NCBI RefSeq assembly: GCF_000011005.1
Contig: NC_013665.1
Coordinates: forward strand, 310,001-374,000
Length of the DNA stretch: 64,000 bases
Source of the DNA: Methanocella paludicola SANAE
Lineage (GTDB): Archaea; Halobacteriota; Methanocellia; Methanocellales; Methanocellaceae
Reading direction: 5' to 3'
The number at the start of each line of letters is the position of its first letter. The stretch's first letter is position 1. The position numbers and the translations under genes are program-made. A model generated the notes under the pieces. That model searched no databases. It saw only the letters and a program-made list of their open reading frames with translations, and had not been told where the DNA came from. This document shows, one piece after another, positions 669 to 18,400 of this stretch.

Positions 669-2159
669 ATGCTGAAAAAGGTATCGAGATCCTTATTGAT
701 CATCGTAATTATTTTGATGGCCTATGTGGGCTGCGTATGGTGCGCCACGGCGGCGAACGTGACATTGATTAATCCCGTCATTTCGTATAACCCCGTCCTG
801 AAAAGCTCGCTCGGCATGAACCTGACGCTAAACAATACATCGGCGAACGCGGGCTCCCCGATATCGCTGGTGGCGCTGGCAAAGTACCCGAACGGCACTA
901 ACATCGGCCCTGGATACACGATCACTCTCACCTGCGCTCCTGTCGGCGGGAACTTCGGGGTCAGCACGGGCACGACCGGCTACACGAAGACAATGATTCT
1001 CATCTCCAGCATCAACACGAACTTCATGGCCTCCGCGCCCGGCACGTATAAGATCACCGCGACCGTCCACGACCCTAACGGCGTCTACTGGGACGGCGTC
1101 GCCAACCAGACCGTGACGATACTGGCCACGCCGACCACGGTGCCTGTCACCCCCACGCCCGTAGTGCAGACGCCTACACCTATAGTGCAGTCCGCCACGC
1201 CCACGGCCGTGATCCAGAACACCCCCACGGCGACCGCCCAGGCTAACATGACCGCGGGCGGCTCGACCGACCTTGGCCCCATGCTGCCCTACATCGCGAT
1301 AGTCGTCGTCATACTGCTCATCATCATCTTAATAGTGGCTTTCCTCTGGTTCAAGAGGACCCTGCGGCTGGAGCTTAAGAAGCCCAGCGCGCCGGCGGAC
1401 GGCAAGTCCACCGTGCCAGTGCGCATATCCTTCGTGAACGGCCTCGGCATGGCGGCGCGCGCCCGGTCCGACACGGACATAACGCTGGAGTCCTCGGCCG
1501 GCACCATCCAGAACGTGGTGCTCCAGAACGGCAGGGACTTCGTGGACGCTACGTTGACCACGTCCAGAGAGTTCGGGCCGGTCACGGTCAGGGCGAGGGC
1601 GGCAGGAAAGGAGGCGAAGGCGGCCCTTAATTTCGTCTACGACAGCGCCGTTATCGACCTGGCCGTCGCCCCGGGCACGATACCGGCGGACGGCAAGTCA
1701 TCCGCAAATATCATCATCCGCATAAAGGACGGCTCGGGCAACTACATAGCGCCTCTCCAGGAGATCTCCGTCGACCTGAAGTCGACGCTGGGGAGCATCG
1801 CCAGCCCGGTCAAGATGCCGCCGAAGGTGCAGTCGGTGAACTCGTCCATCACGTCGGGCGACGTGAGCGGCGTCGCCGCCATAACGGCTACTGGCGGAGG
1901 CCTGAGAGGAGAGGCCATGCTTACGTTCGAGGGCACGGCGAAGAGGTTCTGCATGCACTGTGGCTTCACAATGACCATGGAGGCCTCGCAGTGCCCGAAG
2001 TGCGGGCTTACGCCGCCTTCCGGCGTGGACGCGAAGCAATGCCCCACCTGCGGCACCGTCATACCGGAATCCGCCGCGTTCTGCTACCACTGCGGCGCGA
2101 GGCAGCCTGAAGTGGCCAAACCCGTGCAGCCCCAGGACCCTGGCGCAAATAAAAATTAG
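669..2159 (+). CDS. Membrane-anchored surface protein with Ig-like domains and C-terminal zinc ribbons
   Basis: 496 residues. Order: signal peptide (about 1-27); extracytoplasmic Ig-like region (about 45-150); Thr/Pro-rich stalk (about 153-195); strong TM segment (about 206-228, ending WFKR); two Ig-like units each containing the motif PADGKS (about 235-420); and two CxxC...CxxC zinc ribbons (about 428-478). A cleaved N-terminal signal would put the stalk outside and the PADGKS units plus zinc ribbons in the cytoplasm. The C-terminal half is clearly paralogous to those of the minus-strand proteins at 15429 and 19370. It sits directly upstream of the tail-like operon. Function unknown; adhesin, sensor or docking protein are all possible. 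Confidence 0.75.
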   Translation: MLKKVSRSLLIIVIILMAYVGCVWCATAANVTLINPVISYNPVLKSSLGMNLTLNNTSANAGSPISLVALAKYPNGTNIGPGYTITLTCAPVGGNFGVSTGTTGYTKTMILISSINTNFMASAPGTYKITATVHDPNGVYWDGVANQTVTILATPTTVPVTPTPVVQTPTPIVQSATPTAVIQNTPTATAQANMTAGGSTDLGPMLPYIAIVVVILLIIILIVAFLWFKRTLRLELKKPSAPADGKSTVPVRISFVNGLGMAARARSDTDITLESSAGTIQNVVLQNGRDFVDATLTTSREFGPVTVRARAAGKEAKAALNFVYDSAVIDLAVAPGTIPADGKSSANIIIRIKDGSGNYIAPLQEISVDLKSTLGSIASPVKMPPKVQSVNSSITSGDVSGVAAITATGGGLRGEAMLTFEGTAKRFCMHCGFTMTMEASQCPKCGLTPPSGVDAKQCPTCGTVIPESAAFCYHCGARQPEVAKPVQPQDPGANKN

Positions 2160-2468: not shown

Positions 2469-3818
2469 ATGACAAGAATATTGCCGGGAGTCGAAATTCA
2501 GGTAATCAAGGAGATCGTGCCCCAGCAGCTGAACCCTTCAGGCGTCGTGGCCCTCATAGGGACGACGGAGAAGGGCGAGGCGCTGGTGCCCACACCTGTG
2601 AGCAGCTACGCGGAGTTCGCGGACAAGTTCGGGTCGAGCGAGAGCTTCACCGTCACGAAGGACGCCAAGCAGGCCTTCCAGAACGGCGTGTTCCAGGTAG
2701 TCGTTGTGCCCATCAGCGGCCAGAACGGCACGAAGGGCACGCTCGTGTTGAAGGATAGAAAGGGGCGGGACACAGTGCTCCTGACCGCGAAGTCGTCGGG
2801 CGAGGAGGGCAACAAGATCATGGTGAAGGTCGAGGGCGACGCCGACTCGATACGGGTATCCGTGTCGGACGGGGCGAGCCTGGAGATCTACGAGGACGTG
2901 ACCATGAACTCGTCGAGCCAGAACTATCTCGTGGACATCATCAACCAGAGGTCCGCCATGGTAACGGCCGAGGACCAGCATTCGAGCGCCAAGTTCCCGC
3001 ACAACAACCCCGCGGCCGTCGAAGGCCAGCTTTCGGGCGGGGTCACGGGCGTCATTTCTAAGGCCGACTACGAGGCCGCCCTGGACAAGCTCGAGGGCGA
3101 GCCGGACGTGGACATCGTGGCCGCCTGCGAGGTCAGCGATCCGGAGATCCACGCGCTGATCGAGGCCCACTGCCTGAAGATGAGCATCGACGCCAAGAAC
3201 CGCATAGGCCTTGGCTCGGTCGCGAAGGGCGAGAGCATCAAGGACATCTGCAACCGCACGACGGTCATGGCGAGCGACAGGTTCGTCATCGTGGCGCCAT
3301 ACGGCTGCCTGGGAGCGGTGGCCGGCCTGATGAGCAGGCTGAACTATTACGAGTCGCCGACGTTCAAGCCGGTAAGCGGCCTGGCAAAGCTGGAGAAGAA
3401 GTACACGCCCTCGGAGCAGATGGAGATGCTCAAGGCGGGCGTGCTGCCCCTGGAAGCCCAGAAAGGCCGGGGCATCGTGGTCGTCAAGGGCATATCCACG
3501 AGCAAGGAGCAGATCAGCGTCACCCGCATCGCGGACCACGCGGTGAGGGGCGTAAAGAGCGTGTCCGACCTGTTCATCGGTACGCTCAACAGCCCGACGG
3601 GCAGGGCCGCGCTGAAGGGCAAGATCATCGAGTTCTTCATGAGGATGGAGTCCGAGGGCGCCATCGTCCCGAGTACGGACGGAAAGGAGCCGCCATTCCT
3701 GGTGGACGTCTACAGCTCCGAGCTGGACTTCGCCCAGGGCATCGTGCGCGTGAACATCGCGGTGAGGCCGGTCCGGGCGATGGACTATATCTACGCGACC
3801 ATCAAGGTCGAGGCGTGA
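2469..3818 (+). CDS. Contractile tail sheath protein
   Basis: 449 residues. The N-terminus (TRILPGVEIQVIKEI) and the early motif VVALIGTTEKG match the start of phage and contractile-injection-system sheath proteins. The C-terminal part has the usual sheath signature: a helix around FMRMESEGAIV, then a strand with FVDVYSSE-like sequence (FLVDVYSSELDFAQG) and IAVRPVRAMDYIYATI at the end. Length fits small myovirus or Mu-type sheaths. The sheath polymer surrounds the tube and contracts to drive it through a membrane. GAGGAAAGG just before the ATG supports this start. It is first in an operon of tail genes, 10 bases ahead of the tube gene. Confidence 0.9.
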   Translation: MTRILPGVEIQVIKEIVPQQLNPSGVVALIGTTEKGEALVPTPVSSYAEFADKFGSSESFTVTKDAKQAFQNGVFQVVVVPISGQNGTKGTLVLKDRKGRDTVLLTAKSSGEEGNKIMVKVEGDADSIRVSVSDGASLEIYEDVTMNSSSQNYLVDIINQRSAMVTAEDQHSSAKFPHNNPAAVEGQLSGGVTGVISKADYEAALDKLEGEPDVDIVAACEVSDPEIHALIEAHCLKMSIDAKNRIGLGSVAKGESIKDICNRTTVMASDRFVIVAPYGCLGAVAGLMSRLNYYESPTFKPVSGLAKLEKKYTPSEQMEMLKAGVLPLEAQKGRGIVVVKGISTSKEQISVTRIADHAVRGVKSVSDLFIGTLNSPTGRAALKGKIIEFFMRMESEGAIVPSTDGKEPPFLVDVYSSELDFAQGIVRVNIAVRPVRAMDYIYATIKVEA

Positions 3819-3828: not shown

Positions 3829-4242
3829 ATGGCTGTACAGTTATTTTCTGCACGGTGGAGCAACGTGACCATAACGCCGTCCATGGGCGGCAGCTCCGAG
3901 ACGGTGGGAGTCCAGTCGATCGAGTACTCCATAAACCTGAACAAGGAGGACCACTTTGAGGGCGGGAGCCACCTGAGGACCTACGTGTCCTACGGATACA
4001 AGCAGGTCAAGGGCAAGATCCAGGTCAAGTCCGTGAGCACGGTGCTCGACGCCCTGCTGGACAAGATGGAGGAGATGAACAACAGCTTCTCGCTGCACGT
4101 GGACCTCTCCAACGGCACGGACCACAAGGTCCTCGACTTCTTCGAGTGCTACCTCGAGAGCAAGGAGTTCGGGATCGACGTCAACGGCAACGGCATATCG
4201 ACGTACTCCTTCACCGCGAGGGACGTCAAGGAAGGCGCGTAG
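3829..4242 (+). CDS. Tail tube protein
   Basis: 137 residues. Size, beta-rich composition and its place directly after the sheath fit the inner tube protein of myovirus tails and injection systems (gp19/Hcp-like fold). The sequence includes a phrase typical of tube subunits, YSINLNKEDHFEGG, and ends in a strand-rich TYSFTARDVKEGA. Hexameric rings of this protein would stack to form the needle. The assignment rests on order and general features, since tube proteins share little sequence identity. No signal peptide or membrane segment. Confidence 0.75.
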   Translation: MAVQLFSARWSNVTITPSMGGSSETVGVQSIEYSINLNKEDHFEGGSHLRTYVSYGYKQVKGKIQVKSVSTVLDALLDKMEEMNNSFSLHVDLSNGTDHKVLDFFECYLESKEFGIDVNGNGISTYSFTARDVKEGA

Positions 4243-4259: not shown

Positions 4260-4616
4260 ATGAAAAAACTGACCAAGGAAGACATCCTGAAGGGCAAGGA
4301 TAAGCGCGAGACGTTCCGCGTCGACGCTTACGATTCCGACGTCGTCCTGCGGCCCCTGACCGACGGCGAGCTCAGCGAAGTGTTCGCCGTCATCGGCAAC
4401 GTCCCTCTCAAGAGCGACGGCACGCCGGACGGGGGCCAGGTCGACATCGTCAAGAACTTCAAAGCGCTGCGGCTTGTCACGTCCCTGGGCCTCGTCGAGC
4501 CGAAGCTCAGCGTGGACGAGGTCGGCGACATGAAGTTCGGCGTCCCGGAGCAGATCGGCACGCGCATCCTGGAGATCAGCGGCATATCCTCAGCTGTAAA
4601 AAAAGAGCTGAGATGA
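4260..4616 (+). CDS. Tail assembly chaperone, upstream (G-like) part
   Basis: 118 residues, mixed charged and helical, located between tube and tape measure where phages encode the tail assembly chaperones (lambda G/GT, XkdN-type). The last codons before the stop contain a run of seven A at 4598-4604, phased as A_AAA_AAA, a classical -1 slippery heptamer. The gene overlaps the next ORF by four bases (ATGA), and that ORF is in the -1 frame. A -1 slip would give a fusion of about 192 residues joined through K-R-A-E-M-K. Such chaperones coat the tape measure protein during assembly and are absent from the finished tail. Function inferred from position, size and frameshift architecture. Confidence 0.65.
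   Translation: MKKLTKEDILKGKDKRETFRVDAYDSDVVLRPLTDGELSEVFAVIGNVPLKSDGTPDGGQVDIVKNFKALRLVTSLGLVEPKLSVDEVGDMKFGVPEQIGTRILEISGISSAVKKELR
4598..4604 (+). promoter_or_regulatory. Candidate programmed -1 ribosomal frameshift site (A_AAA_AAA)
   Basis: Seven consecutive A fill the third base of one codon and the next two Lys codons of the upstream chaperone ORF. Slipping back one base enters the frame of the downstream ORF (reading R-A-E-M-K-R-F) ten bases before the zero-frame TGA at 4614. A small hairpin (about 4629-4643, five pairs with a G-U) lies further downstream than classical stimulators. The position within a tail chaperone gene pair is the expected one. Confidence 0.6.
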
Positions 4617-4837
4617 AGAGGTTCGTCAGGTCCCCCGAGGGCCAGGAGCTCGCCATGCTGTGCCTGGATTTCGGGTACAAGCTGGCCGACAGGCCCGGGG
4701 ACCTCACCCGCCCTCAGATCAACTTTCTTGCCCTGGCGCTCTCGGACCGGCTGGAGAGGATAAACCTCGCCAGGTCCGACCGGCCGGGAGTGAATAAGAT
4801 TGTCTTCGTGGACGATGACGAGGATGAAGAGGAATAA
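4613..4837 (+). CDS. Tail assembly chaperone, downstream (T-like) part
   Basis: 74 residues as an independent ORF from ATG 4613, or the C-terminal part of a frameshift product with the preceding ORF. It starts KRFVRSPEGQELAMLCLDFG, is helical in the middle, and ends with a strongly acidic tail (VDDDEDEEE). In long-tailed phages this part of the GT fusion contacts the tail tube protein while the G part contacts the tape measure. The ATGA overlap also allows translation by termination and re-initiation, so both a free and a fused form are possible. Confidence 0.6.
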   Translation: MKRFVRSPEGQELAMLCLDFGYKLADRPGDLTRPQINFLALALSDRLERINLARSDRPGVNKIVFVDDDEDEEE

Positions 4838-4911: not shown

Positions 4912-7083
4912 TTGTATGAGAGCCTTCCTCCTGCGGCCGCCCGGATCGGCTCCGTTTCTACGATAGGCTTAGAGCGGATGGCCGGCCCCGATAGCCCGGC
5001 TGAGCAGCCGCTGCCTGCCAATATTATTTTACTTATCGAAGAGCTTCGCCGCTCTGTTATAGAGCTTAACGCGAGGGCCGCCAGCGTCCCCGAGATCCAC
5101 AAGTACTATTTGCCTCCGGCCGCCCCGGCCCTGGCCGTGCCCGCGCCAGTGCAGGCGCCTGCCGTGGAGCCCGTGACGGTTTACGTTCGCGAGCAGGCCG
5201 ACCAGGCAGATAAAAATCAGGAGCCCGTTGAACTTTCAAGGATCGTCCCTGCAAAGCCTGCGCAGGCAGTTGATAACGACATCATCCGGTCAAACGTTGT
5301 CCTGGGAAGACTCAGGGAGGACTATGCGGGGCTTACTTATGACCTGGCAGAGGTAGAGCGCCTGATAAAGGAGGCTATGCGCTCGTCGGCCGCCGATATC
5401 CCGGCCATGGTGAGCGCTAAGGCAACCCCGATAATGCCCTCGCAGCAGGCGGGGGGAGAATACGTCGAGCGCCCCGCCCCTGAAGTCATCGTAAGGGAAA
5501 AAACGTCTATAGTGAAAGAGGTAGTCACGAAGGAGGGCGCCCGGGAAAGCAAGGCTGGTCTGGACGATGCTAAAGTGTCTAAGCCGGCGGTGCTTGCCAC
5601 GGCCCTGGCCCAGGGCATAAGTCTACCTGGCGTGATCCGGAAGTCGACCGTAGATATGATGATAATGCAGGCGGCGCTCGCCCCGGAGCCTGCCCGGTAT
5701 CTGGCAGTCCCCGTCGTGCCTGAAAGCCGAAGCGCCATCGCGCGGGACGCTGTGCCGGATATGGTATCCTCTAAGATCCCGGCCCCAGAAGCGCCGGTCG
5801 TGCAGGCCCTGGGCATCGCCCGGGCCTTCAACGCCCTTATAGGCTCATATCTCTCTTTCCGCGGCACGCCGGCCCGGCGAGGGGACATAAAAGACGGCGT
5901 AACGCAGCTTTTACTATCACTTCCGGAGCAGAAGGCCGTCGAAGGGCCAGCTTCGGGCCTGTTCGACGCCATGGCCGCGCTCCAGGCGGCCGGGCCGAAG
6001 GCGGCCGGGATGCTTCAGCCGGTCGAGATAGCGGCAAGAGCGCCAGCGACTGCGGCGGCGCCGTTAACTCAGGATAATGAGCCGATGCGTTCTACCGTCC
6101 TTGGCGACCTCGGCGAGATGCATAACACTATGGTGGCCCTGCAGGACGCGGTCGGCAGCCTTCGAAGGGCGAGCCCGCCGGTCGCTGAAGTTCCCGAAGC
6201 TGCCGAGATCCCTGCGGCCGAATGGCCCGAATACGAAGGCGAATTATCGGTCATTCGGGCCTCAATAGCCAGGCTCCAGGCGGCCATGGACTACCTCAGT
6301 GTCAATGTTCCTACGCTTGCGGACCTCGTCGTGATCCAGAGATCTGTCGTGGACATTCCACAAGTTGCGGCGCCGCAGGCAGCAGCGCCGGTGGCCGTTA
6401 CTATCGAAGGAGTACCGCCGAAGGCCGCCGCGCCCGTAAGCCTCCCGGACCTGTCCTGGGTGACCCGGGAGTTCTGGCAGATGCAGGGCATGATCGCCCG
6501 GCTCCAGGTGCCCATGTACGCGGAGGGCGGGCTGGTAGAGGAGCCTACCCTGGCGTTCGTCGGAGAGTCCGAGCCCGAGTGGATCGTGCCCATGAGCGCC
6601 TGGGACGCGTCCCAGTCGAAGCTGAACGATTTCTACCACATGCTCTGGTCGCAGATCCAGGACCTGGGCACCTCGATGCAGGATACCGTGGACGGCGTGA
6701 ACGAGGCACTCGAGGGCATAACGCCTGGCGGCGAGGGAAAACCCGAGGACACCGACTTAAGACAGCAGCTACAGGATACGATGAAGGAGCTGGTGGATAG
6801 GTACCTGGGCATGATCGGTCTCAGCGTGGACACTTTGAAGGACGCCGAGAAGACCGCCGGGATGGGGCTGGTCCTGGGAACGGCTACCGTCGCGTTACCT
6901 TATGCGAAAAAGGTCATGGTGGGAGACGATGAGGAGGATAAGGAAGAATCCTCCGGCGGCGGAAAGGAAGACGATAAAGAAGAGGACGATGAGGAAGACT
7001 TCTGGGAGATGATCGACGGCCTGGACGAGGCGGCGTCGATCAGCGATAAGCGTGACGGGAAGTTCGACCCGGATGAAAAATAA
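4912..7083 (+). CDS. Tail tape measure protein
   Basis: 723 residues from a TTG at 4912, Ala/Pro-rich with long helical stretches. Two segments beginning near residues 125 and 395 look like repeats (IRSNVVLGRLRED and MRSTVLGDLGEMHN). Near residues 538-565 is a tape-measure signature, YAEGGLVEEPTLAFVGE followed by WIVPMS. The last 80 residues hold a hydrophobic helix (about 660-675) and a very acidic tail. The tape measure sets tail length; at 0.15 nm per residue it would span about 110 nm. The start is uncertain. The frame is open back to 4828 without ATG, GTG or TTG, the extension looks coding (LLTTAINDLVAAAAGI), and a GGGGGAGG lies at 4838-4845, so a CTG or other rare start near 4846-4852 is possible. 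Confidence 0.78.
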   Translation: MYESLPPAAARIGSVSTIGLERMAGPDSPAEQPLPANIILLIEELRRSVIELNARAASVPEIHKYYLPPAAPALAVPAPVQAPAVEPVTVYVREQADQADKNQEPVELSRIVPAKPAQAVDNDIIRSNVVLGRLREDYAGLTYDLAEVERLIKEAMRSSAADIPAMVSAKATPIMPSQQAGGEYVERPAPEVIVREKTSIVKEVVTKEGARESKAGLDDAKVSKPAVLATALAQGISLPGVIRKSTVDMMIMQAALAPEPARYLAVPVVPESRSAIARDAVPDMVSSKIPAPEAPVVQALGIARAFNALIGSYLSFRGTPARRGDIKDGVTQLLLSLPEQKAVEGPASGLFDAMAALQAAGPKAAGMLQPVEIAARAPATAAAPLTQDNEPMRSTVLGDLGEMHNTMVALQDAVGSLRRASPPVAEVPEAAEIPAAEWPEYEGELSVIRASIARLQAAMDYLSVNVPTLADLVVIQRSVVDIPQVAAPQAAAPVAVTIEGVPPKAAAPVSLPDLSWVTREFWQMQGMIARLQVPMYAEGGLVEEPTLAFVGESEPEWIVPMSAWDASQSKLNDFYHMLWSQIQDLGTSMQDTVDGVNEALEGITPGGEGKPEDTDLRQQLQDTMKELVDRYLGMIGLSVDTLKDAEKTAGMGLVLGTATVALPYAKKVMVGDDEEDKEESSGGGKEDDKEEDDEEDFWEMIDGLDEAASISDKRDGKFDPDEK

Positions 7084-7089
7084 GCGGGC

Positions 7090-8280
7090 GTGGTAAGGAT
7101 GGACGTAGAGATAAGTGAGACTAAGACGGCGGGAAAAAAGCTCGTGCTTACATCTTCAGGCCTTGGGCTATACGTAAAGAGCCTGCTCGGCGTCGGCGCG
7201 TACTATAGCGTGAACAACGTGACGATCTCCGAGAGCAGGAACTTCGTCGAGCACACCATGCCCGGCAGGAAGGGCAGCGTGTTCCAGGACATGGGACGCC
7301 CTGCGATCAAGGTCACCATCGAGGGTAACATCGCCGAGGACGGCATCTACTATGGCCTGTCGGGCAAAGGTAAAAACACGATCATGCTGGAGGAGCTGCA
7401 CAAGCTCTGCGACGCGGGCAATCCGGTAGACTTCCTGTGCGATATGCCCGCGCTGTTCGGGGTTTCCCGCGTCATCATCCAGGAGCTCGAGGCCACCGAG
7501 GTAAAGGGAAGAAAACACAATTACAATTATAAGCTTACGCTGAAGGAGTGGAGCGAGCCTGCCATGGGCTCGGACGCTCTCCGGAACAAGTACGTGGAGA
7601 GCATGAAGAAGGACGCCAAGATACAGCTACTGAAAAAGGGCGTCGTCGCCGGCGCCGCGGCCGGTGTCGTCGTGACCTATATGGCCGTCACGACCGTAAA
7701 AACGAATAGGCTCGTTATTAAGCTCGATATCGATAAGCGCGTGGTCACGGCCGAGGAGGCCGTGGATATCAAGGCATCGGTAAACGACTCTAAGGGCGAC
7801 CCCGTCGCCGACGCGGACGTTACGATCAAGCAGGATACCAAGGAACTGTTCTCGGGGAAGACCAATGCGGAAGGCATTGTTTCCGCCACGTTCCAGAGCC
7901 CCGATGCCGGCAATTATACGGTCACCGCGACAGCCGTGAAAAGCGACTATGGAGATGGCGAGGCTAGCGCTACCGTCACCGTGGATACCAGGATAAAGGC
8001 CAGGCTTTCGACCGATAAGGCCACGATCAAGACCACGGGTAAGGCTAACATCAAAGTGACCGCGGCGGACTGTAACGGCAAGGCCATCGAGGGCGCGACC
8101 ATCGAACTGGCATGCACGGGCGCCACGCTCGAGCCGGCCAGCGGCAGCGCGGACTCGCAGGGAGCCTTCACGGCCAGCTTCAGCTCCACGACCGCCGGGA
8201 GCTACGAGGTCAAGGCCACAGTGAAGAAGTCGCCGTACGCCGATGGTAACGCGAACGTCACGATCAAGGTGATCACATAA
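7090..8280 (+). CDS. Baseplate protein with membrane segment and two Ig-like domains
   Basis: 396 residues (GTG 7090; ATG 7099 is an alternative). The first 160 residues resemble the N-terminal domain of Mu gpN-type baseplate/DNA-circularisation proteins, with the motif HTMPGRKGSVFQDMG followed by KVTIEGNI. Usual relatives continue with LysM or other hub parts. Here, a Lys-rich stretch leads into a hydrophobic segment at about 184-203 (GVVAGAAAGVVVTYMAVTTV), then two Big_1-like Ig domains (about 208-300 and 302-396) of the type seen in the surface proteins nearby. By the positive-inside rule the baseplate domain would be cytoplasmic and the Ig domains outside. The hydrophobic segment is Ala/Gly-rich and could instead be a buried helix. 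Confidence 0.7.
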   Translation: MVRMDVEISETKTAGKKLVLTSSGLGLYVKSLLGVGAYYSVNNVTISESRNFVEHTMPGRKGSVFQDMGRPAIKVTIEGNIAEDGIYYGLSGKGKNTIMLEELHKLCDAGNPVDFLCDMPALFGVSRVIIQELEATEVKGRKHNYNYKLTLKEWSEPAMGSDALRNKYVESMKKDAKIQLLKKGVVAGAAAGVVVTYMAVTTVKTNRLVIKLDIDKRVVTAEEAVDIKASVNDSKGDPVADADVTIKQDTKELFSGKTNAEGIVSATFQSPDAGNYTVTATAVKSDYGDGEASATVTVDTRIKARLSTDKATIKTTGKANIKVTAADCNGKAIEGATIELACTGATLEPASGSADSQGAFTASFSSTTAGSYEVKATVKKSPYADGNANVTIKVIT

Positions 8281-8324
8281 GGGGAGAATGGGATATGGAC
8301 AGGGCCGGGAGGAAGTGATATCGT

Positions 8325-9557
8325 TTGCCGCCATCTGCTAAACTGCTGCCAAAAATGCCGCTACCTAAAAAACCACTACCTGCAATACCAAAAATTAAAA
8401 AGCCGTTACCTAAGATACCGTTATCGAGCCGTTACCGGCCGATCTATAAGGTAACGATCAAGACGCCCCAGGGAAAGCAGTACGAATATAACTCGTGGTA
8501 TTACAAGGACCCTACGGGCATTAAAACGAAGCAGAACAATAAGCTGGCCATCTATATCGATCGCGACCTGGAGAAGAAGCTGGACGTATGCCTGATGAAC
8601 ATCTCCCTCCGGAGCGGGGACCTGATCGACACTGCCAAGAGCCCGAAGTTCGGCGACATCCGGATCGGCTCCGTGATCAAGGTATACCTTGGCTACGCGA
8701 ACGTGAACGAAGAAAACCCGAGCCTCAAGGAAAGCGATATTGCGTTCGCCGGCATCATCGACGAGATCTCCCACAGCTTCAAGAAGATCTCGATCACCGC
8801 GTTCAGCATGGCCTACAAGATCATCTTTAAAAAGGCGGACCCGAAGAAGTTCGAAGGGGACGACTGGAAAAAAAATGAAAAATCCTCAAAGGACATCATC
8901 ACGACCCTGCTGGAAAAGAAGCTGGACGTCGATAAGATCGACGAAGGCCTGAAGTTCACGGCCTATACGCCTAGCGATGAACAGTCGATCTACGATAATA
9001 TCAAGACGCTGGCTGACTGTAACGGGTTCCTCTTCTATATCTCGAAGGATGGCAAGGCCCGGATCCACGAAAAGAGCTCCCGGGCCCATTCGTTCAAATA
9101 TGGCGAGGACATCCTGGAGAACAGCATCACCATGTCCAAGCCCGCTTACGATAAGGTCGAGGTCAAATTCACCTATAAAAAGGACGGCAAAGATACTAGC
9201 GTCCTCTCATCTAAGCCGATCGCCGGCAGCACCCTGGCAAAGGATAAAAAAGAGGAAACGAAAAATATCGACTTCGGCCTGGCCGATGACGTGAATACGG
9301 CAAAAAAGATCGCGGAGAACATCCTCCGCGGGATCTACGTGATCGAGACGGGCGAGGTGAAGGTCATCGGGAATACCGGCGTGGACCTGGGCGATGAGCT
9401 GACGATCTCCTTCGACAGTTCGGCCCCGGGCGCGAAAGAGCTCGATTACATGAAGCGCGACAAGGTGGTCATAACCAGGGTCACCCACAAGTACGGGAAA
9501 AAATCGGGCTTTACCACGACGATCGGATGGAAGAAGTTCGAAAAGAAGAAGCCATGA
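8325..9557 (+). CDS. Tail hub protein, gpD/late-control (gp27-like) family
   Basis: 410 residues from a TTG. The region from about residue 40 onward fits the gpD/gp27 hub fold that caps the tube and holds the spike: beta-rich N-part with GIIDEISHSF, a central stretch on multi-step lookup of coordinates (SIYDNIKTLADCNGFLFYI), and a C-part ending TRVTHKYGKKSGFTTTI. The first 35 residues are unusual: a Pro/Lys-rich run with repeated PLPKK/PLPKI units, probably disordered. The spike gene follows directly. In phage Mu and P2 these proteins form a trimer at the baseplate centre. Confidence 0.78.
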   Translation: MPPSAKLLPKMPLPKKPLPAIPKIKKPLPKIPLSSRYRPIYKVTIKTPQGKQYEYNSWYYKDPTGIKTKQNNKLAIYIDRDLEKKLDVCLMNISLRSGDLIDTAKSPKFGDIRIGSVIKVYLGYANVNEENPSLKESDIAFAGIIDEISHSFKKISITAFSMAYKIIFKKADPKKFEGDDWKKNEKSSKDIITTLLEKKLDVDKIDEGLKFTAYTPSDEQSIYDNIKTLADCNGFLFYISKDGKARIHEKSSRAHSFKYGEDILENSITMSKPAYDKVEVKFTYKKDGKDTSVLSSKPIAGSTLAKDKKEETKNIDFGLADDVNTAKKIAENILRGIYVIETGEVKVIGNTGVDLGDELTISFDSSAPGAKELDYMKRDKVVITRVTHKYGKKSGFTTTIGWKKFEKKKP

Positions 9558-9590
9558 CGACGGCAGGACAGGGGAATAGAGGGTAGAAAT

Positions 9591-10451
9591 ATGGTAACAA
9601 TGCCAAGATACTTCATCGATATAGGCCAGGTCACGAAGGTAATGCCACATAAGAGTAACAATGACGGCGCCAATTACCACTGCGATATCATGCTCAGGGA
9701 TAGCGGCAACAGCCTGACCAACGTGCCGGTGGCCTCGACGCGCATGGGTTTCGCATGCATTCCTGAAGTCGATGACCATGTGCTTGTGGGGTTCATCCGG
9801 GGCAACCTATACATGCCGGTCATCCTGGGCACCCTGTACAACGACCAGGCCAAGCCCCCGCTGTATCTCGAAGGCGAGGCCGTCTATGTCTGTCCCGAAT
9901 ATAAGCAGAAACAATCGAGCGATCCAAAGCCGGAGGAGCTTAAGCGCATATACATGGAGTTGCCGAAGCATAAAATGAAGCTCATCGTCCGGGAAGAGGA
10001 CGTGCACTATGAGCTTCTGAAATACAAGTTCGACCTCAAGAAGGAAGAAGGCATAAAGCTGGAGGTCAACGAAAAGACGAGCCTGGCCATCAGCAAGGAC
10101 GGCGACATCACGATCACCGCAAAGGATACTAAAATATCGATCAACAAGGAGGGCGAGATCGCCATCGACTCGAAGCAGAAGGTGGGCATCAAGACCACGG
10201 CGGAGGTCAGCCTGGAGTCGAGCGGCGGCGACATGAAGCTCACCGCGAACAACATCACCCTCAAGGGCAACCAGTCCGTCAGCATCGAAGGCACGCAGGC
10301 GGTCGAGATCAAGGGCACGAACGCCAAGATGGAAGCCAAAGCACAGCTCGATATCAAGGGAGCGATGGCCAAGGTGGAAGCGACCGGCATGATGGATGTC
10401 AAGGCCTCCGGTGTCATGAACATCAAGGGTTCTATCGTGAACATCAACTAG
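9591..10451 (+). CDS. Baseplate spike protein (gpV/VgrG-type OB fold plus beta-helix)
   Basis: 286 residues. The first 90 residues form a gp5/VgrG OB-fold-like domain, ending GTLYNDQAKPP, the hallmark of the spike base (compare GxLYN). From about 150 to the end are short repeats alternating I/V-x-I/A with Gly, Thr and Lys (DGDITITAKDTKISINKEG and so on), typical of the triple-stranded beta-helix needle. The spike sits at the tip of the tube and pierces the target envelope. The hub gene is upstream and the PAAR tip downstream, the expected order. An alternative Met start lies at 9600. Confidence 0.85.
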   Translation: MVTMPRYFIDIGQVTKVMPHKSNNDGANYHCDIMLRDSGNSLTNVPVASTRMGFACIPEVDDHVLVGFIRGNLYMPVILGTLYNDQAKPPLYLEGEAVYVCPEYKQKQSSDPKPEELKRIYMELPKHKMKLIVREEDVHYELLKYKFDLKKEEGIKLEVNEKTSLAISKDGDITITAKDTKISINKEGEIAIDSKQKVGIKTTAEVSLESSGGDMKLTANNITLKGNQSVSIEGTQAVEIKGTNAKMEAKAQLDIKGAMAKVEATGMMDVKASGVMNIKGSIVNIN

Positions 10452-10459
10452 GTGAGAGC

Positions 10460-10855
10460 ATGGGCATGCCAGCAGCAAAGATGGGAGACAAAGTGATGGC
10501 CGTGGATACGCATATATTCCTGATCCCTGCGCCACCGGGGCCTCCGGTACCGACGCCCCTGCCGAGCCCGTTCAACGGCACGATCACAGGTAATTGCAGC
10601 ACGAACGTGATAATAGAAAAGAAGCCGGCCGCAACGGTGGGCTCGACGGCGATGAACATGCCGCCCCACATGCCCCAGGGAGGGCCGTTCCAGGTGCCTC
10701 CCACGAACCAGGGACAGATCATCATGGGCAGCCCGACCGTCATGATCAACGGCAAGCCGGCGGCCCGTAACGGGGATACGGCCCTGACATGTAACGATCC
10801 GGCGCCGCTCCCGATCGGCAAGATAATCGCAGTGGGTACAGTAATGATAGGTTAG
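10460..10855 (+). CDS. PAAR-domain spike tip protein
   Basis: 131 residues, rich in Pro, Gly and Asn. It contains PAAKMGDKVMAVD near the N-terminus and VMINGKPAARNGD near the C-terminus, the two PAAR-type motifs that wrap the metal-bound cone sharpening the spike. A Pro-rich stretch separates them, together with H and C residues available for metal binding (His in the first part, Cys in LTCND). No toxin domain is fused. It lies 8 bases after the spike gene. Confidence 0.85.
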   Translation: MGMPAAKMGDKVMAVDTHIFLIPAPPGPPVPTPLPSPFNGTITGNCSTNVIIEKKPAATVGSTAMNMPPHMPQGGPFQVPPTNQGQIIMGSPTVMINGKPAARNGDTALTCNDPAPLPIGKIIAVGTVMIG

Positions 10856-10866: not shown

Positions 10867-11304
10867 ATGCCAGATAGCATATATGGAAGCGATATAAAGC
10901 TGAGGATGGGCCAGTATGCCGGATTCTACGGCATCGGCGCGGACCTCTACGTCAACCGCAGGGGCGACGTGGACATCGTGTCCGGAAGGGAGAACCTGGG
11001 CCAGGCGATCATACACCGCCTGTTGACCAGGCAGGGAGAGCTCGAGGAGCTGGGCTACCCGGAGTACGGCTCGAACCTGCACGAGCTGATCGGCAGCCCT
11101 AACAACCTGAAGACGTGGAACCTTGTGAAGCTCTACGTGAACCAGTGCCTCTCCCAGGAGGTCCGGGTCGAGAAGGTCGAGAGCATTGATGTCATGCCCC
11201 ATGGCAGCGACCCTCATGCCGTCGTCGTCGAGGTCGCCATCGTGCCCATCGGAAGCGAAACCCCGCTCGGCATCTCGTTCCCTTATAATCTGGAGGTGGA
11301 ATAG
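10867..11304 (+). CDS. Baseplate wedge protein, gp25/gpW-like
   Basis: 145 residues. The central part, with the phrases ENLGQAIIHRLLTRQGEL and YPEYGSNLHELIG, is the gp25-like signature found in myovirus baseplates, type VI secretion (TssE) and injection systems. It starts sheath polymerisation from the baseplate. Its last base overlaps the GTG start of the baseplate J gene (TAGTG), so translation is likely coupled. Confidence 0.87.
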   Translation: MPDSIYGSDIKLRMGQYAGFYGIGADLYVNRRGDVDIVSGRENLGQAIIHRLLTRQGELEELGYPEYGSNLHELIGSPNNLKTWNLVKLYVNQCLSQEVRVEKVESIDVMPHGSDPHAVVVEVAIVPIGSETPLGISFPYNLEVE

Positions 11305-12842
11305 TGTCATACGTGCCTAAGGCATACAGGGATATTGCGGACGCGATACTATCGCAGATCGCCAGCGGCGTCGTGGAGCAAAAGTTCACGTACCTGCCTG
11401 ACGGGGGAGTATACACCCTGTCATATCCGGAAGAGAAAACGGTGGTCAAGGTCGAGGGCAGCCTGAACGGGTACCCCCACGTGTTCACGAAGGACGTGGA
11501 CTATTTAGTGAGCGACCACACGCTGAAATGGCTCCAGGGCTCAAAGCCCGACGGCAACACCCCGTTCACGGTTTATCACCTGGCCGGGACACCGGTGGAC
11601 ATCACCGACGTCAACCCGGGCAGCGTCGTCCGGACCATCATCGAGTCGATCGCCGTCGAGATGGGCTTCCTGTACACCCAGATGGAAGCGGTCTACGAGT
11701 CGAGCTTCATCGATACCGCCACGGAACAGGCCCTCGACCTTGTCGTCGCCATGCTGGGCGTCACCAGGAAGCCGGCCGAGCATGCCACCGGGGACGTCAC
11801 CTTCGGGAGGAGCGGCGAGCCCAAGCTGCTGAGCGTCCCGAACGAGGCCATCGTATTCGACGGCAAGGATGCCCACGCGCTCAAGAACGGCATGGTCAAG
11901 AGCGTTAAGTCCATCGAAGGCCAGGCTAATGGCACGGCGGTCCAGTTCGCCGAGGGCACGGACTTCAGGCTTGAGAGCGACCGGATCGTCTGGCTTCAGC
12001 CGGGTAAGCGTCCGGATAAAAGCTCGGTCTTTTACGTCAACTACAGCTATTACGAGAAGATCATCATACCAAAGGATAGCGAAGTATCCACCTACTCCAG
12101 GAACTCCGAGAACATACGGAGCTTTAAGACCATCCGCGAGGCCCTGCTGACGAAGAACTCGGCCGGCAAGTGGGAGATCATCGTGCCGGTCGTGGCGACG
12201 GTGCCGGGCAGGGCGGGGAACGTCTTTTCCGGAAGCATCAGCATGATGCCCACGGCCATACCCGGGGTCGACTACGTGGTCAACAAGAGCGACATCATGG
12301 GAGGCGCCGAGGTCGAGGGCGACGAGGAGCTGAGGGACAGGGCAAAGCGGGCCATGGAGCGGGCTGGCAAGGCGACCACGCGGGCGCTCCAGCTTGCCGT
12401 CCAGGCCGTCGAGGGCGTCACGGGCGAAGTCGTGGTGATCGACCAGCCCGACGGCGTGCCGGGCATCATCCAGGTCATCGCCACGGGTGGAGACCGGGAG
12501 GAGATCGAGAACGCCATCGAGGAGACCCGCTCGGCCGGGATACGCGTCGAGCTCAAGCGGCCCGTTTCCGTGCCGCTCGACGTCCGGCTCATGGTATACA
12601 CGGCGGCAGGGGCCGAGATCGAGGCGGTCAGGCAGGGTGTCGACCAGGCCGTGCGTAAGTACTTCGCGTCCCTGGAGATCGGCGACGACGTCATTATAAG
12701 CCGCATCATCGAAGCGGCTGTGAGCGTTAGCGGAGTAAAGGACGTGCGCGAAGTGACGATCAACGATAAGGCGGAGAATGTCCGCATCAAGAGGGATGAG
12801 AAGGGCGACTGCAGGCTGCTGGAGCTCTTCATGGAGGCATGA
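11304..12842 (+). CDS. Baseplate J-like wedge protein
   Basis: 512 residues. The middle and C-terminal parts match Baseplate_J/gp47 proteins: a strand-rich region with VPVVATVPGRAGNVFSG and SGSISMMPTAIPGVDYVVN, then GGAEVEGDEELRDRAKRAM and the gp6-like C-terminal domain with EGVTGEVVVIDQPDGVPG. It forms the outer wedge of the baseplate ring. The N-terminal 200 residues include an extra beta-rich segment. A GGAGGTGGA precedes the GTG start, which overlaps the gp25 stop by one base; the following gene overlaps its stop. Confidence 0.87.
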   Translation: MSYVPKAYRDIADAILSQIASGVVEQKFTYLPDGGVYTLSYPEEKTVVKVEGSLNGYPHVFTKDVDYLVSDHTLKWLQGSKPDGNTPFTVYHLAGTPVDITDVNPGSVVRTIIESIAVEMGFLYTQMEAVYESSFIDTATEQALDLVVAMLGVTRKPAEHATGDVTFGRSGEPKLLSVPNEAIVFDGKDAHALKNGMVKSVKSIEGQANGTAVQFAEGTDFRLESDRIVWLQPGKRPDKSSVFYVNYSYYEKIIIPKDSEVSTYSRNSENIRSFKTIREALLTKNSAGKWEIIVPVVATVPGRAGNVFSGSISMMPTAIPGVDYVVNKSDIMGGAEVEGDEELRDRAKRAMERAGKATTRALQLAVQAVEGVTGEVVVIDQPDGVPGIIQVIATGGDREEIENAIEETRSAGIRVELKRPVSVPLDVRLMVYTAAGAEIEAVRQGVDQAVRKYFASLEIGDDVIISRIIEAAVSVSGVKDVREVTINDKAENVRIKRDEKGDCRLLELFMEA

Positions 12843-13750
12843 TGTCAAGGGCTGACGATATCGCCGACAGGCTGCCCCACTTTTACATGACGTGGAACGC
12901 GGACTCGGCGGTCACTACGCTCATCCGGTCCGTGGCAAACGTCCTGGACTACACTCAGTCGGACCTCATCGAGATCCTGCGGTCCCACTGGGTGGACACT
13001 GCCCGGGGCAATGACCTGGACCGGCTGGGCCTGATGCTCAGCACGCAGCGCAAGGTCGGCGAAGCGGACCAGGAGTACAGGGGCCGCCTGAAGACCGCCA
13101 TCATAGGGTACAGTGGCGGGGGCACGCTGAACTCCATCCGTATCATGATAAGGATCGCGCTGGGCCTGCCGGAGGACTATCCCATCGATATCGTCGAGAA
13201 CCCGAAGGAGAACATGAAAAAGTCCTGGACCGTCCCCGCGAACGGGGAATGGGCCGTGGACCCGGTCAGCATCTCCTCGTCGCAGCCCCGGATAACGCTC
13301 GCCGTGGAGACGCCGGACGTGGAGATCAACAATCCCACGATCACGAACATCGACACGGGGCAGTCCGTCACCTTTAACGGCAGGATGGCCCGGGGCGACG
13401 TGTTAAACCTTTATGCGGGGCGGGCGATACTCAACGGGGCGGACAGAACGGCCTCGCTCTCATCGACAACGCCGCTGACGCTGCCCAGGGGTAAGACCCG
13501 GTGGAAGTACACGGAGGCGGTGGGGTCCAACCTGGGGGTCTTTGACCGGGCGCAGTTCGACAAGTCCGTGTTCGCCGTGGAGATCGCGACGAAAGTGACC
13601 TTCGAGTGGTCTGCATACCTGCCCGCCACGTTCGAGGTCCGGATACCGTCGGCCTCGCTCGAGAGGGTCGGCGCCAGGCCGGAATACGTACAGGGCCTGC
13701 TAGACTCGCTGAAGGCCAGCGGAGTAAAGGGCACGGTGAAGGTGGTATGA
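12839..13750 (+). CDS. Baseplate-associated tail protein I-like
   Basis: 303 residues. The N-terminal 110 residues (ADDIADRLPHFYMTW, then DLIEILRSHWVDTARGNDLDRLG, then a GGGTLNSIR loop) resemble gpI/DUF2313-type proteins, which follow baseplate J in Mu, P2 and many tail clusters. From about residue 125 on, the protein is beta-rich, with a repeated strand pattern that might present a fibre. GGAGG lies just before two adjacent Met codons; the second (12842) has better spacing. It overlaps the end of baseplate J, indicating coupling. Confidence 0.7.
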   Translation: MMSRADDIADRLPHFYMTWNADSAVTTLIRSVANVLDYTQSDLIEILRSHWVDTARGNDLDRLGLMLSTQRKVGEADQEYRGRLKTAIIGYSGGGTLNSIRIMIRIALGLPEDYPIDIVENPKENMKKSWTVPANGEWAVDPVSISSSQPRITLAVETPDVEINNPTITNIDTGQSVTFNGRMARGDVLNLYAGRAILNGADRTASLSSTTPLTLPRGKTRWKYTEAVGSNLGVFDRAQFDKSVFAVEIATKVTFEWSAYLPATFEVRIPSASLERVGARPEYVQGLLDSLKASGVKGTVKVV

Positions 13751-13788: not shown

Positions 13789-14418
13789 ATGGCGCTTGAA
13801 TTGAGCTACAAGAAGCCCGGGGACCTGATCAGGTCCGAGGAATGGAACAGGATCATCGACGAGCTGGCGGGCCTGCGCAAGTACATCGATAACATGACCA
13901 GGAGCGTGACGCTTACGCAGCTTTCCAGCCCGGCCGGCAAATCGTACAACCTGAGCACGAACATGGAGGACGAGTACAACTACGGCATCGACACGATGGG
14001 CCTCATAACGAAACAGTTCTACACGGATAAGAACACCGTCGGCACCATCTGCAGGTTCGGGCTGAACGACTACGCGGACACCGTATCGTACTGGTCCGGC
14101 GCCGTGGGAGGCGATAAGGAAGTCCTGGACATCACGGTCGAGTACGTGGACGGCACGGCCTTCAACGCCCGGGGCGTCTACATACACGAGTGGTCTAACC
14201 TCCGGCCCAGGGGCACGAAAAACCCGTACGTTGAGTACCTGCAGTCGCCGAACCAGCGCCTGTGGTACCGCTACGTGCTCGTGAACCCGTACCCGGACAA
14301 GGAGATCCGCCATATCACGTTCGCCGACACGAGCAAGGACAGCGCCGTGAGGATCGCCAACGTGCTGCACTATACGACCCGCGTGAAGCAGCTCGTCCTG
14401 CCCGTCGTGAAGACGTGA
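13789..14418 (+). CDS. Putative tail fibre or receptor-binding protein
   Basis: 209 residues that I do not recognise by family. The first 40 residues (KKPGDLIRSEEWNRIIDEL) resemble the short attachment stretch seen at the N-termini of tail-fibre-like proteins. The rest is beta-rich and aromatic, without membrane segments, and looks lineage-specific. Position after the baseplate genes makes a fibre or adhesin the likeliest role. GGGAGGGG lies a few bases before the start. Treat the role as inference from order only. Confidence 0.45.
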   Translation: MALELSYKKPGDLIRSEEWNRIIDELAGLRKYIDNMTRSVTLTQLSSPAGKSYNLSTNMEDEYNYGIDTMGLITKQFYTDKNTVGTICRFGLNDYADTVSYWSGAVGGDKEVLDITVEYVDGTAFNARGVYIHEWSNLRPRGTKNPYVEYLQSPNQRLWYRYVLVNPYPDKEIRHITFADTSKDSAVRIANVLHYTTRVKQLVLPVVKT

Positions 14419-14422: not shown

Positions 14423-15121
14423 ATGATCGGACAGATCGACGACGCCCTGCTCGATCGGCTTAAGAGCGGCCTGTCGCTTGCTAAGGACGAGGTGGCGCTG
14501 GGCCCGGCGGCGGGAAAAAAGAGGTCCGTATCGCTGGTCTGCACTGACTTTATCGTAGACGAGACCAGCGTCGGCGGCTCCATGAGCGTCAAGTACGAGG
14601 AGGTCGTCGACATGCTGGACGCCGACGGCTCCACGGCCATATTCCGGCTTTCCAGGCCTCCTGTCAAAGCCATTATAAGCGTGGAATGCCCTCCGGGCAC
14701 TTTTAAGAAAGAGGGCGACGACTATATGGTCGAGCCTTCGAGGGGCATCGTGAGCCTTCGGGCTGTCCCGAAGAAAGGGAAGGAGTCCGTCAGGGTGAAA
14801 TACAGCATCCCCAGGGCCATCGGCGAAACCCAGAACGTCCACATGGCGCTCACGTACGCGATCACCGTGAAAGAGGCCGACCTCCGGACGAGGGAGGACA
14901 TCGCCATGGATATCATTCGCCTGTTCTACCGGGAAAAGCCCTTTCTGGTGGAGCGCGGGGTCGAGGAGATCCAGATCGTCAAAGGCTTCGGTAACGGCGC
15001 CGAAGGCTCGCCGGAAGACGAGCTGACGCTCGTCTATAAGGTGCTGGCGACGCTAAAGGTCGATATCGTGACCGTGGGCCCGCTCGAGAAGATTAAGCTG
15101 GACGGTATCCGGGTCAAGTGA
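14423..15121 (+). CDS. Unassigned last gene of the tail operon; possible tail terminator
   Basis: 232 residues, soluble, beta-rich first half and mixed second half. Its beginning, MIGQIDDALLDRLKSGL, is like that of DUF4255/Pvc16-type tail-terminator proteins of extracellular injection systems (M-I-x-x-I/V-D-x-x-L-x-x-L), but this is a short match and is not proof. A cap or terminator protein is otherwise missing from the operon, which makes the idea attractive. The gene ends the operon 76 bases before the palindrome at 15198. Confidence 0.4.
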   Translation: MIGQIDDALLDRLKSGLSLAKDEVALGPAAGKKRSVSLVCTDFIVDETSVGGSMSVKYEEVVDMLDADGSTAIFRLSRPPVKAIISVECPPGTFKKEGDDYMVEPSRGIVSLRAVPKKGKESVRVKYSIPRAIGETQNVHMALTYAITVKEADLRTREDIAMDIIRLFYREKPFLVERGVEEIQIVKGFGNGAEGSPEDELTLVYKVLATLKVDIVTVGPLEKIKLDGIRVK

Positions 15122-15428: not shown

Positions 15429-18400
15429 TCAGTTCATCGACGCAGTAGCCTTCTTATCATCCGCTGAAACCGCAGGCGCACCGCACGACGGGCATACGGG
15501 CAGGCTGCCCGGTATGGGCTGGCCACAGTTTGCACAAAGCTGACGGGACATGCTCCGGAACTCCACGCGGCCGGTACCCTTTAGCGTGCCCATGGTCGCG
15601 GTCACCATCGCGATGCCTCCTTCTTTATTGGAGACGATCGTGGCGTTCGCCGAGTTAGCCCTCGCGGGCATGTTGACTATCGAGCCGACGATGTCGCCGA
15701 GGGTCGTGTTAAGCTCGATCACTTTGTCGGACAGGGGCACGACATAGTTGCCCTTCGAGTTCCGTATGCGGACGTTGACGCTGGCGGACGACTTGCTGTC
15801 GGCGATGATCATGCCCGGGGTGATGGTTACGGCCAGAGAGCCTCCCTCGAGCTTGAACTCGACGGGCACGGACGCATTGGCCTTATCGCCTATCTTAGCC
15901 TTTATGGTGACGGGGCCGAACTCCTTGGAGGACGTCAGGACCGCGTCGGCGAAGTTCCTGCCTGAGGGTATGGTGACGCTCTCGATCCGGCCGGCAGTGG
16001 ACTCGAGCTCGACGTACGTGTCGCTCCGCGCCTTCTTCGGCCGGCCGAAGCCGTTAAAGACCTCGATACGCACGGGCAGCCTGGACATGCCGTCCGCGGG
16101 GATGGCGCCCACCTTCGGGACGACCCTGAGGTCGTATTCCCTCCATTTCTCTATCAAGGTCACCAGGATGATGAGCACGATGGCGATGATGATGACCGCA
16201 ATGATGAAGTAGATCAGGATCTGCATGTCGAACATGCCCTGTTTTACCTTGATGAAGGTGCTGTAGCTCGCCTGGCCTATCCCCTCGGAATAGGCGGTGA
16301 CTCCAAGCGTATATGTGCCCTCGGAGCCCGCTGTGTACTGGGCGACGAACTTGCCGTCGCTGTCGGTAACGCCGGACTCTGGGGTGATAGTGCCGCCCGT
16401 TGCCACGAGGCTGACCTGCGCGTTGCTCACTGGCATGACGCCGTCCGTGACCGTCACCGTGACCTCGGCCTTCGAGTTGGGGCTGACCGACTTGGGATCG
16501 ACGCTCATGGCGGCGTACAGGTGCCTCTCATCGGCGCCCACGACCTGTACCGCGTAGCTCACCCTGGACGCCGGGTGACCGCTAGCCGTTGCCGTCACGG
16601 TAAGTATGTACGAGCCAGGGTCTCCCGAGTGGAACATGGCGAACATGTTGCCGTCGCTGTCGGTCGTGCCCGAGGACGGGGTTACAGAGCCGCTCGTGGT
16701 CTCGATCTTTATCGAGGCCCCCGGCACGGGGATGCCGCCATCCATGACGCTGACGGTGACCTCTGCCTCCGAGCCGATGACCACGGGCTGCTGCTTGACC
16801 ATGGCGTTCACGGTAAGCGCCCCGGGTATGGCGTTGACTACGCTGGCGGCCAGCATCGCGGTGCCCGGGTCATATCCCGTGGCCGTGGCCGTGATTGTCA
16901 GCGAGTGCTGGCCTGGGTTGTCCGACTTGAACGTGGCGTAGCAGACGCCGTTGCCGTCCGTCGTCGAGTTGAGCATGATGATCTGGCCGCCGGTGCGGTC
17001 GATGCTCACTTTTGCGCCGCTGACCGGCCGGGTCCCGTCCGTCACGGTGATGGTGATCTTGCCTTCGTATCCGGCGACGATCTGCTCGGTGTCGAGGTTC
17101 GCGTTGACGTATAACTGTTCCACGTCGGGCGCCGGGGTAGGTGTCGGCGTGGGCTCGGGCGTCGGCGTTGGGGTGGGGGTCAGGCCATGGATGGACAGCG
17201 TATAGGTCTGTGGATTACCCGGAACTGCATCGTCCGATACCTTTTGAAGGCCGAAGACGACCGACTTTTCGCCCTGTGCCGAAGAGTTGACCAGCACGGT
17301 TATCTTCTGGAATCTTTCTTTGACCGCGAAGTGGACCGTGTATGGAAGGCCGGCCGTCGTGGAGTAGTCATCGGGCGAGGCCGCGCTGCCGCTGGCCCGG
17401 TAGAAAATAATGCTGGACTCCCGGTCGTATGCCGACCTCTCTATTATTATCTCGCATAAGCCACCGCTATTGGCGTCAAAGCCCGACTCGGTGAAATAGA
17501 CGTCATAGGGTTCAGGCACGCGCTCCGATAGGTCTATGACCTCCACTTCCACGTGGTCTAAGGAACCGATCGAGACGTTATCCTGCGGCTGGAGCCGGAA
17601 GTATGCGTACTGGGCATCGTGCGTCCTGTTATCCTCGATCACGCTGATGTTGACTGTCTTGCCGGTCTCGTTCGGGGCGAACGTTATAATACATTTTGAC
17701 GTGCTGTCCAGCGCCGGGTCAGCCTGGAACCTTGAGACGTACATGTTCCTGCTCAGCGTATTATCATACTGGAATACGACCCTGCTCTCGACGTTCTTCG
17801 CGCCCGACCGGGTCAGATAAAGGCTGACGGTGTTCCCTTCATTGACGCTGGCGATGCCGGCCGTGAAACTGACCACGGGGTAAGGGGTCGTATCGGAAAC
17901 GGCCAGGGCGTTCATCGAATTGCCGATGGTGGCATTAACGGGGTTTGTGAGCGTGAAGTCCAGGCGATAATCATTGCCGCAGATGACATCGTCACGGGTC
18001 GTGACCGTGATGTTGGCCGTCTTTTGCCCTGGCTGGAACAGGACCATGTTCGTCGGCGATACCGAGAAGTTATCCCTGCTGTGGCCTTCGACCGTATAGC
18101 TGAACTCCACGCTGCTCCTGATGTTCGTGGCGCCGGTCCTGCACAGGGTTATATCGATAGCGTTCCCCTCGTCGACGGCCTCGCCCGACAGCACGAACTC
18201 GATCTCCGGCAGCGCCGTCCTATCGTTGATCGTCAGATCATTCGAGCCCTTCGTTCCGATCAGCGCCTTGCCGCCGTTCACGGCCTCGAGGGTAAATTTT
18301 ATCACCCGCGTATCATCGTAGGCAAGGTTGGAGTCCGCGTTTATGGTAATGGTCTTCTCTTTCTCGCCCTTCTGGAAGGTTATCTGGTAATTATTATTGT

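Follow-up and report, generated by a model that had tools for sequence, protein, structure and literature searches.

A Mu-type tube initiator with Ig-like domains and candidate membrane-docking proteins in a contractile injection cluster of Methanocella

Here we identify with high confidence the protein encoded at positions 7090-8280 of the window, gpN-Ig, as the tube initiator of a Mu-type archaeal contractile injection system (CIS), and we find that it very probably does not span the membrane. The window is the whole stretch of DNA that was analysed, 64,000 nucleotides of Methanocella paludicola SANAE (310001-374000 of a single 2,957,635-base contig). Taken as a whole, the locus is probably best explained by a tube initiator that works in the cytoplasm and by docking of the machine through adjacent bitopic membrane proteins that carry a zinc ribbon. 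How archaeal contractile systems are anchored to an envelope of one membrane and an S-layer is the question that these findings address, and a zinc-ribbon protein that tracks the sheath across several archaeal groups offers a specific candidate for the anchor that can be tested. What is new here is the initiator with an Ig tail and the membrane partner with a zinc ribbon, while Mu-type tube initiators and archaeal PLTS clusters were already known; gpN-Ig is otherwise an ordinary baseplate part with an unusual C-terminus.

A complete archaeal contractile cluster occupies 2469-15121, running from the sheath to gpI and two further conserved proteins that belong to no known family (Table 1). The gene order of tape measure, N, hub, V, gp25, J and I is that of phage Mu 42-48, with a PAAR gene inserted between V and gp25 relative to the Mu order. 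No AAA+ ATPase was found among the cluster genes of the window that were scanned, and a scan for the Walker A pattern in the ORFs of five related loci gave a single match, inside a sheath. The LysM ORF before the hub is absent by Pfam, and the gpN-Ig gene occupies that place. The tape-measure-like protein ends in an acidic C-terminal tail, whereas its relatives share the conserved end ELGRKIGQILSEELKRYGG.

Table 1. Features of the contractile cluster and its flanking membrane proteins (window positions).
Positions	Strand	Feature	Basis
669..2159	+	Bitopic protein: signal peptide, ectodomain, TM 205-228, two cytosolic beta-sandwiches, double zinc ribbon; candidate anchor	AF2
2469..3818	+	Contractile sheath	Pfam Phage_sheath 2.4e-22; PHROG tail sheath 1.8e-48
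3829..4242	+	Tail tube candidate	Position; weak Phage_tube_2 match; adjoins sheath in relatives, conserved
4260..4616	+	Tail assembly chaperone candidate	PHROG 344, 1.3e-4
4613..4837	+	Small conserved ORF in chaperone-tape measure gap	
4912..7083	+	Tape-measure-like protein	Position as Mu gp42; weak PHROG 167 tape measure match, 0.05
7099..8280	+	Tube initiator (Mu gpN-like) with two C-terminal Big_1	ORF, Pfam, homologue starts, Foldseek
7090..7563	+	gpN/DNA_circ_N/DUF6046 domain, residues 1-158	Pfam, alignments A2 and A4, Foldseek to Mu gp43 and other baseplates
7639..7698	+	Ala/Gly/Val-rich hydrophobic segment in linker, residues 184-203	Hydropathy; low confidence
7750..7980	+	Big_1 Ig-like domain 1	
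8002..8256	+	Big_1 Ig-like domain 2	
8325..9557	+	Baseplate hub (gpD/Mu gpP-like) candidate	Position as Mu gp44; weak PHROG 52 tail protein match; conserved in relatives
9591..10451	+	Spike (gpV-like)	Phage_base_V 6.8e-9
10460..10855	+	PAAR tip protein	PAAR_motif 5.7e-19
10867..11304	+	Sheath initiator / gp25	Sheath_initiator 2.1e-7
11304..12842	+	Baseplate wedge gpJ	Baseplate_J 4.9e-29
12839..13750	+	Baseplate wedge gpI-like	Position as Mu gp48; conserved in relatives
13789..14418	+	Conserved CIS protein without known family	
14423..15121	+	Last conserved CIS gene (g14423 family)	Gene of zinc-ribbon membrane protein lies directly beside it in many relatives
15429..19478	-	Bitopic protein: Calx-beta and Big_1 ectodomain, TM about 1091, cytosolic sandwiches, truncated zinc ribbon	
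19370..22561	-	Bitopic protein: propeller and Big_1 ectodomain, TM about 774, cytosolic sandwiches, double zinc ribbon	

The gpN-Ig ORF is intact and encodes 396 amino acids from a GTG start at 7090. Relatives open with M-[KN]-I-E-L, which aligns to M4-D-V-E, so the ATG at 7099 is more likely the start, judging from the sequence comparison. All the parts that an earlier note on this DNA had described are present, namely a gpN-like domain, a Lys-rich stretch, an Ala/Gly/Val-rich segment at residues 184-203 and two Ig domains. Pfam places DUF6046 at residues 44-151 (2.7e-9), DNA_circ_N at its curated cutoff (4.9e-4) and two copies of Big_1 (3.1e-21) at the C-terminus, where it finds no LysM; a match to PHROG 5233, ‘baseplate hub’, is weak (0.0033). 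The note had also held that the Ig domains are of the same type as those in nearby surface proteins, and this proved stronger than claimed. All five Big_1 domains above the Pfam cutoff in the 2.96-Mb genome lie in this locus, two in gpN-Ig and three in the two downstream membrane proteins, whose ectodomain repeats are the closest matches of the gpN-Ig domains (25-33% identity by BLAST).

That gpN-Ig is a baseplate-type protein of a contractile system, as previously suggested, is borne out by Pfam, by its position as Mu gene N and by Foldseek. The AF2 model is moderate (mean pLDDT 60, pTM 0.36), with the N domain at about 80, and Foldseek matched it to baseplate chains of Mu, phages 7-7-1 and Milano, diffocin, R2 pyocin, AFP, PVC, AlgoCIS, tCIS and the Streptomyces CIS, with TM-scores of only 0.2-0.3 over the query. 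The matched Mu chain, 9ki1_0, is ‘DNA circularization protein N’, and the chains from AFP, PVC, AlgoCIS, tCIS and Streptomyces CIS are presumably of the Afp7/Cis7 type, going by their lengths. When compared by sequence with solved structures, the gpN profile matched only an invasin-type Ig and one unrelated chain. The Mu N protein initiates the tube as a hexamer, its helix-rich LysM arm reaching down and locking into the wedges, and several simple myophages have initiators without this arm (PMC11915804). Phage Mu gp43 (N) thus shares with gpN-Ig its gene position between tape measure and hub and the fold of its N domain; however, it has the helix-rich LysM arm where gpN-Ig has a linker and two Big_1 domains. 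From the fold matches of the single-chain prediction, the N domain would be expected to form a hexameric ring at the base of the tube, on which the inner tube would be built. In Mu and related baseplates, the ring is clamped to the wedges by a helix-rich/LysM arm, for which the Ig domains may substitute. We infer both this clamp role and the cytosolic location of gpN-Ig.

The gpN alignment (A2) was too diverged for a back-translated scan of the collection, so the sheath was used as the query. The 19 distinct gpN relatives come from Methanocellaceae, Methanoperedens, Methanosarcinales, Methanomicrobia-like MAGs, Nitrososphaeria and Methanomethylicia, and some of them have no linker at all or end at contig ends. 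An Ig/transthyretin-like domain follows a polar, often proline-rich linker in 7 of the 19; it is assigned by Pfam as a CarboxypepD_reg/transthyretin-like domain in two (loci L014 and L016) and was read from the sequence in the other five. Of the remaining relatives, some carry a short tail that is helical, acidic or rich in Ala, others stop without an extension, and others are truncated where their contig ends. Several individual loci differ in other ways. The gpN homologue at 10249-11391 of L041 carries a long Glu/Gly/Ala repeat tail that closes, near the C-terminus, in the Ala/Gly-rich stretch TAGLVAGAAIASGAVAGVS. In Methanocella sp. PtaU1.Bin125 (L016, 7898-10458), gpN is duplicated, one copy being without the Ig-fold domain, and a 472-aa protein of no known family lies between the two. 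Two Nitrososphaeria loci have a small extra ORF directly after the last CIS gene (L049, 20645-21142; L050, 13267-13767); the L050 ORF is matched by the full-length gpN profile and is perhaps a separate Ig-like protein.

What, then, is the hydrophobic stretch between the gpN and Ig domains? Most likely it is a linker or a packing helix, not a membrane span. The best 19-mer in gpN-Ig is residues 185-203 (VVAGAAAGVVVTYMAVTTV), with a mean Kyte-Doolittle hydropathy of 1.90 and an unweighted Hessa sum of +2.0. We calibrated hydropathy against proteins of the window, among which a soluble translation-factor-like protein (44531-45763) peaks at 1.89, near the value for gpN-Ig. As a refinement on which our judgement is evenly balanced, the stretch would be a species-specific buried or inter-subunit helix that packs the six initiator subunits or the hub. 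It lies directly after a predicted helix at 158-180 (model numbering, which is gene numbering minus three), it is Ala-rich with a GxxxG motif, and its hydropathy resembles that of the helix in the soluble window protein. However, it takes on no confident structure, and there is no close relative in which to read its conservation. In the AF2 model, the segment has no helix and a pLDDT mostly below 50; it is left unstructured, and the burial inside a soluble domain that the earlier note had set against a membrane span is not seen.

How would such a machine reach the membrane? Strong spans in the window cluster are found only in the flanking bitopic proteins. The general layout of the zinc-ribbon proteins is a signal peptide, an ectodomain, a TM helix, zero to two beta-sandwiches and a double zinc ribbon, and positive residues follow the TM helix, so the C-terminus is predicted to be inside. 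In the AF2 model of 669-2159, the TM helix has a pLDDT of about 85, the sandwiches about 90 and the ribbons about 70, and a fold search with this model returned invasin/intimin-type Ig proteins among the best matches. The zinc ribbon keeps its 49-residue length wherever the pattern was found. Its spacing on the cytosolic side is constant from Methanocella to Nitrososphaeria, and the ectodomain is variable. Two copies depart from the general layout: the protein at 15429-19478 (minus strand) has a degenerate zinc ribbon, with the second ribbon lost and an early end, unlike the other two copies in the window, and one Nitrososphaeraceae copy (L112) has no TM helix by hydropathy.

The zinc-ribbon protein and the sheath occur together. 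Strong zinc-ribbon matches are present in 9 of 12 genomes with this sheath versus 1 of 711 that lack an intact one, and that one has a sheath fragment. In the window's phylum (394 genomes), such matches were found in four of the five sheath-positive genomes and in none of the other 389. Near-full-length matches covering the TM and cytosolic parts were limited there to G000 (three), G001, G002 and G187, and strong sheath matches to the same four and G003, which belongs to the window's family and has its cluster interrupted by the end of a contig; sheath matches outside the window's clade in this sample were weak (E 1e-14 to 1e-6). In a second phylum (329 genomes), zinc-ribbon matches above 120 bits occurred in 5/7 sheath-positive genomes and 1/322 others, the lone exception (G413) holding a sheath fragment only, and the next matches were below 60 bits. 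Fisher tests gave 5e-9 and 4e-9, and about 1.5e-17 when pooled, with genomes counted uncorrected for kinship. Some zinc-ribbon match is found in 19 of the 20 genomes that were reached via sheath loci; in Nitrososphaeria only the zinc ribbon itself matches, and these matches are placed by their position next to PAAR. We consider the zinc-ribbon partner common among sheath genomes, short of established universality.

The genes are also neighbors. The zinc-ribbon gene and the last CIS gene point toward each other, 22-474 bp apart, in the window, in G001 and G002 (Methanocellaceae) and in G187, G395, G397, G398, G399 and G624. In eight more genomes (G401, G403, G404, G405, G406, G407, G409 and G410) it lies beside the PAAR gene, and G396 has two copies upstream of the sheath; G394, G402 and G727 are cut at contig ends. 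The anchor candidate can be linked to the tip in some genomes because it lies beside the PAAR gene. Other membrane proteins also adjoin these clusters: in three loci of Methanomethylicia-type MAGs, genes for a small signal-anchored protein and for a membrane protein with several spans lie upstream of the sheath gene, on the strand opposite to it (L044, 5661-6974; L045, 2513-3850; L048, 8390-9730).

By analogy with CisA and the haloarchaeal T6SS, we judge it marginally probable that the bitopic zinc-ribbon protein is a dock or trigger. Its ectodomain would lie outside, and its cytosolic double zinc ribbon, with or without the beta-sandwiches, would bind the baseplate or tip of the CIS, so that the protein would keep one or the other at the membrane and relay a signal from the ectodomain. 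The bitopic proteins are more likely docking candidates than gpN-Ig. The membrane-docked machine of the earlier note is plausible and gains support from the flanking bitopic proteins, but gpN-Ig is probably not its anchor. A broader proposal, which we put forward tentatively and regard as somewhat short of probable, is that the widespread archaeal CIS without an ATPase are docked, and perhaps triggered, via a bitopic ribbon that grips the tip or baseplate while the variable ectodomain senses the outside or a target cell. The Ig domains gained by the Methanocella initiator may then meet the Ig-like sandwiches of the anchor.

The link between zinc ribbon and CIS could instead reflect regulation, surface display or immunity. 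If so, the zinc-ribbon proteins might be inherited along with the CIS as surface adhesins or as sensors/regulators without anchoring it, which we consider possible but rather doubtful. The large variable ectodomains with Calx-beta, propeller or Big_1 repeats would suit such roles, as would a gene that is often convergent with the cluster and outside the operon. However, it is the cytosolic ribbon that stays constant while the ectodomain varies, and in several genomes the gene is co-directional beside PAAR.

The earlier note had suggested a possible anchor in gpN-Ig itself, with residues 184-203 spanning the membrane, the baseplate kept at the cytoplasmic face by the gpN domain, and the Ig domains outside. 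We find this improbable. The 20-residue uncharged segment does have a GxxxG motif and Lys/Arg flanks, and its hydropathy is above the classical threshold of 1.6; in sequence, the Ig domains are similar to the ectodomain repeats of the neighbors, and one CIS component with a TM segment is already known, Cis13 of the thylakoid CIS (PMC8894136). However, the insertion energy of the segment is marginal and positive, whereas the spans of 669-2159, 15429-19478 and 19370-22561 have a hydropathy of 3.5-3.7 and a Hessa sum of about -7, and it lacks the confident AF2 helix that was modelled for the TM of 669-2159. None of the 19 gpN relatives has an equivalent hydrophobic stretch at the same place, and the earlier note had named homologues without such a segment as evidence that would refute its model. 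The Ig part is cytosolic in composition, a comparison that used charged-residue content alone: its K+R content is 11.1%, versus 10.7-12.2% in the cytosolic regions of the locus and 2.2-6.0% in the ectodomains. Its sequon density (1.6 per 100) is as composition predicts and does not discriminate. The Mu tube initiator, moreover, sits within the baseplate around the tube (PMC11915804). We also rejected gpN-Ig as a signal-anchored surface protein, as a signal peptide is absent, and rejected the Ig domains as proof of a surface location, as the cytosolic side of the neighboring proteins also carries such folds.

Docking through a separate membrane protein, the reading that we prefer, can be compared with known systems. 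A membrane-bound archaeal CIS has already been published, the haloarchaeal T6SS of Halogeometricum borinquense, and methanogens and ANME were named there as unexplored for such systems (PMC11566945). Both systems are archaeal and contractile, and its membrane-bound mode is the one that we propose for the window cluster; the candidate anchor in the haloarchaeal system is a six-helix membrane protein, Hbor_38620 (PMC11566945), rather than a bitopic zinc-ribbon protein. CisA of Streptomyces coelicolor is likewise a separate bitopic protein beside a CIS and a proposed docking/trigger factor (PMC12237407); however, it has an N-in, C-out topology and unrelated domains, whereas the C-terminal ribbon here is predicted to be inside. 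In the thylakoid-anchored CIS (Cis12/Cis13), CIS-encoded parts also provide the membrane anchoring, but there the anchoring falls to a TM domain of the tail fibre and to an extension of the wedge rather than to the tube initiator (PMC8894136). PLTS/eCIS (Afp/PVC-like) clusters, which are also reported from ANME archaea (PMC4122934, PMC9012536), share the sheath, tube, gpD/gpV, PAAR, gp25, J and I with the window cluster. In contrast, PLTS clusters always include an AAA+ ATPase (PMC4122934) and have a LysM ORF, whereas neither was found in the clusters examined here, which carry a Mu-type N protein and a tape measure. A literature search combining contractile injection, zinc ribbon and archaea found nothing in the open literature, most subscription journals lying outside its coverage.

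Every part of the locus is homologous to a phage tail, but it is very improbable that it is the remnant or defective tail of a provirus rather than a domesticated injection system. The ORFs are intact, and many archaeal lineages share the cluster order; neither the sheath nor gpN has a close relative among 50,697 phage records or in IMG/VR; no capsid or terminase match appeared in the part of the window ORFs that was scanned; and the clusters of relatives contain phospholipase genes. The last of these encode Zn-dependent phospholipase C / phospholipase D proteins (L014, 15432-16529; L040, 18392-20803; L043, 16426-18213), one of which carries a peptidoglycan-binding-type domain. Their location inside related clusters suggests that they are cargo candidates that attack membranes. 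A decaying CIS locus is seen in Methanomethylicus (L057, 1453-3445), where a sheath fragment still adjoins the zinc-ribbon membrane protein.
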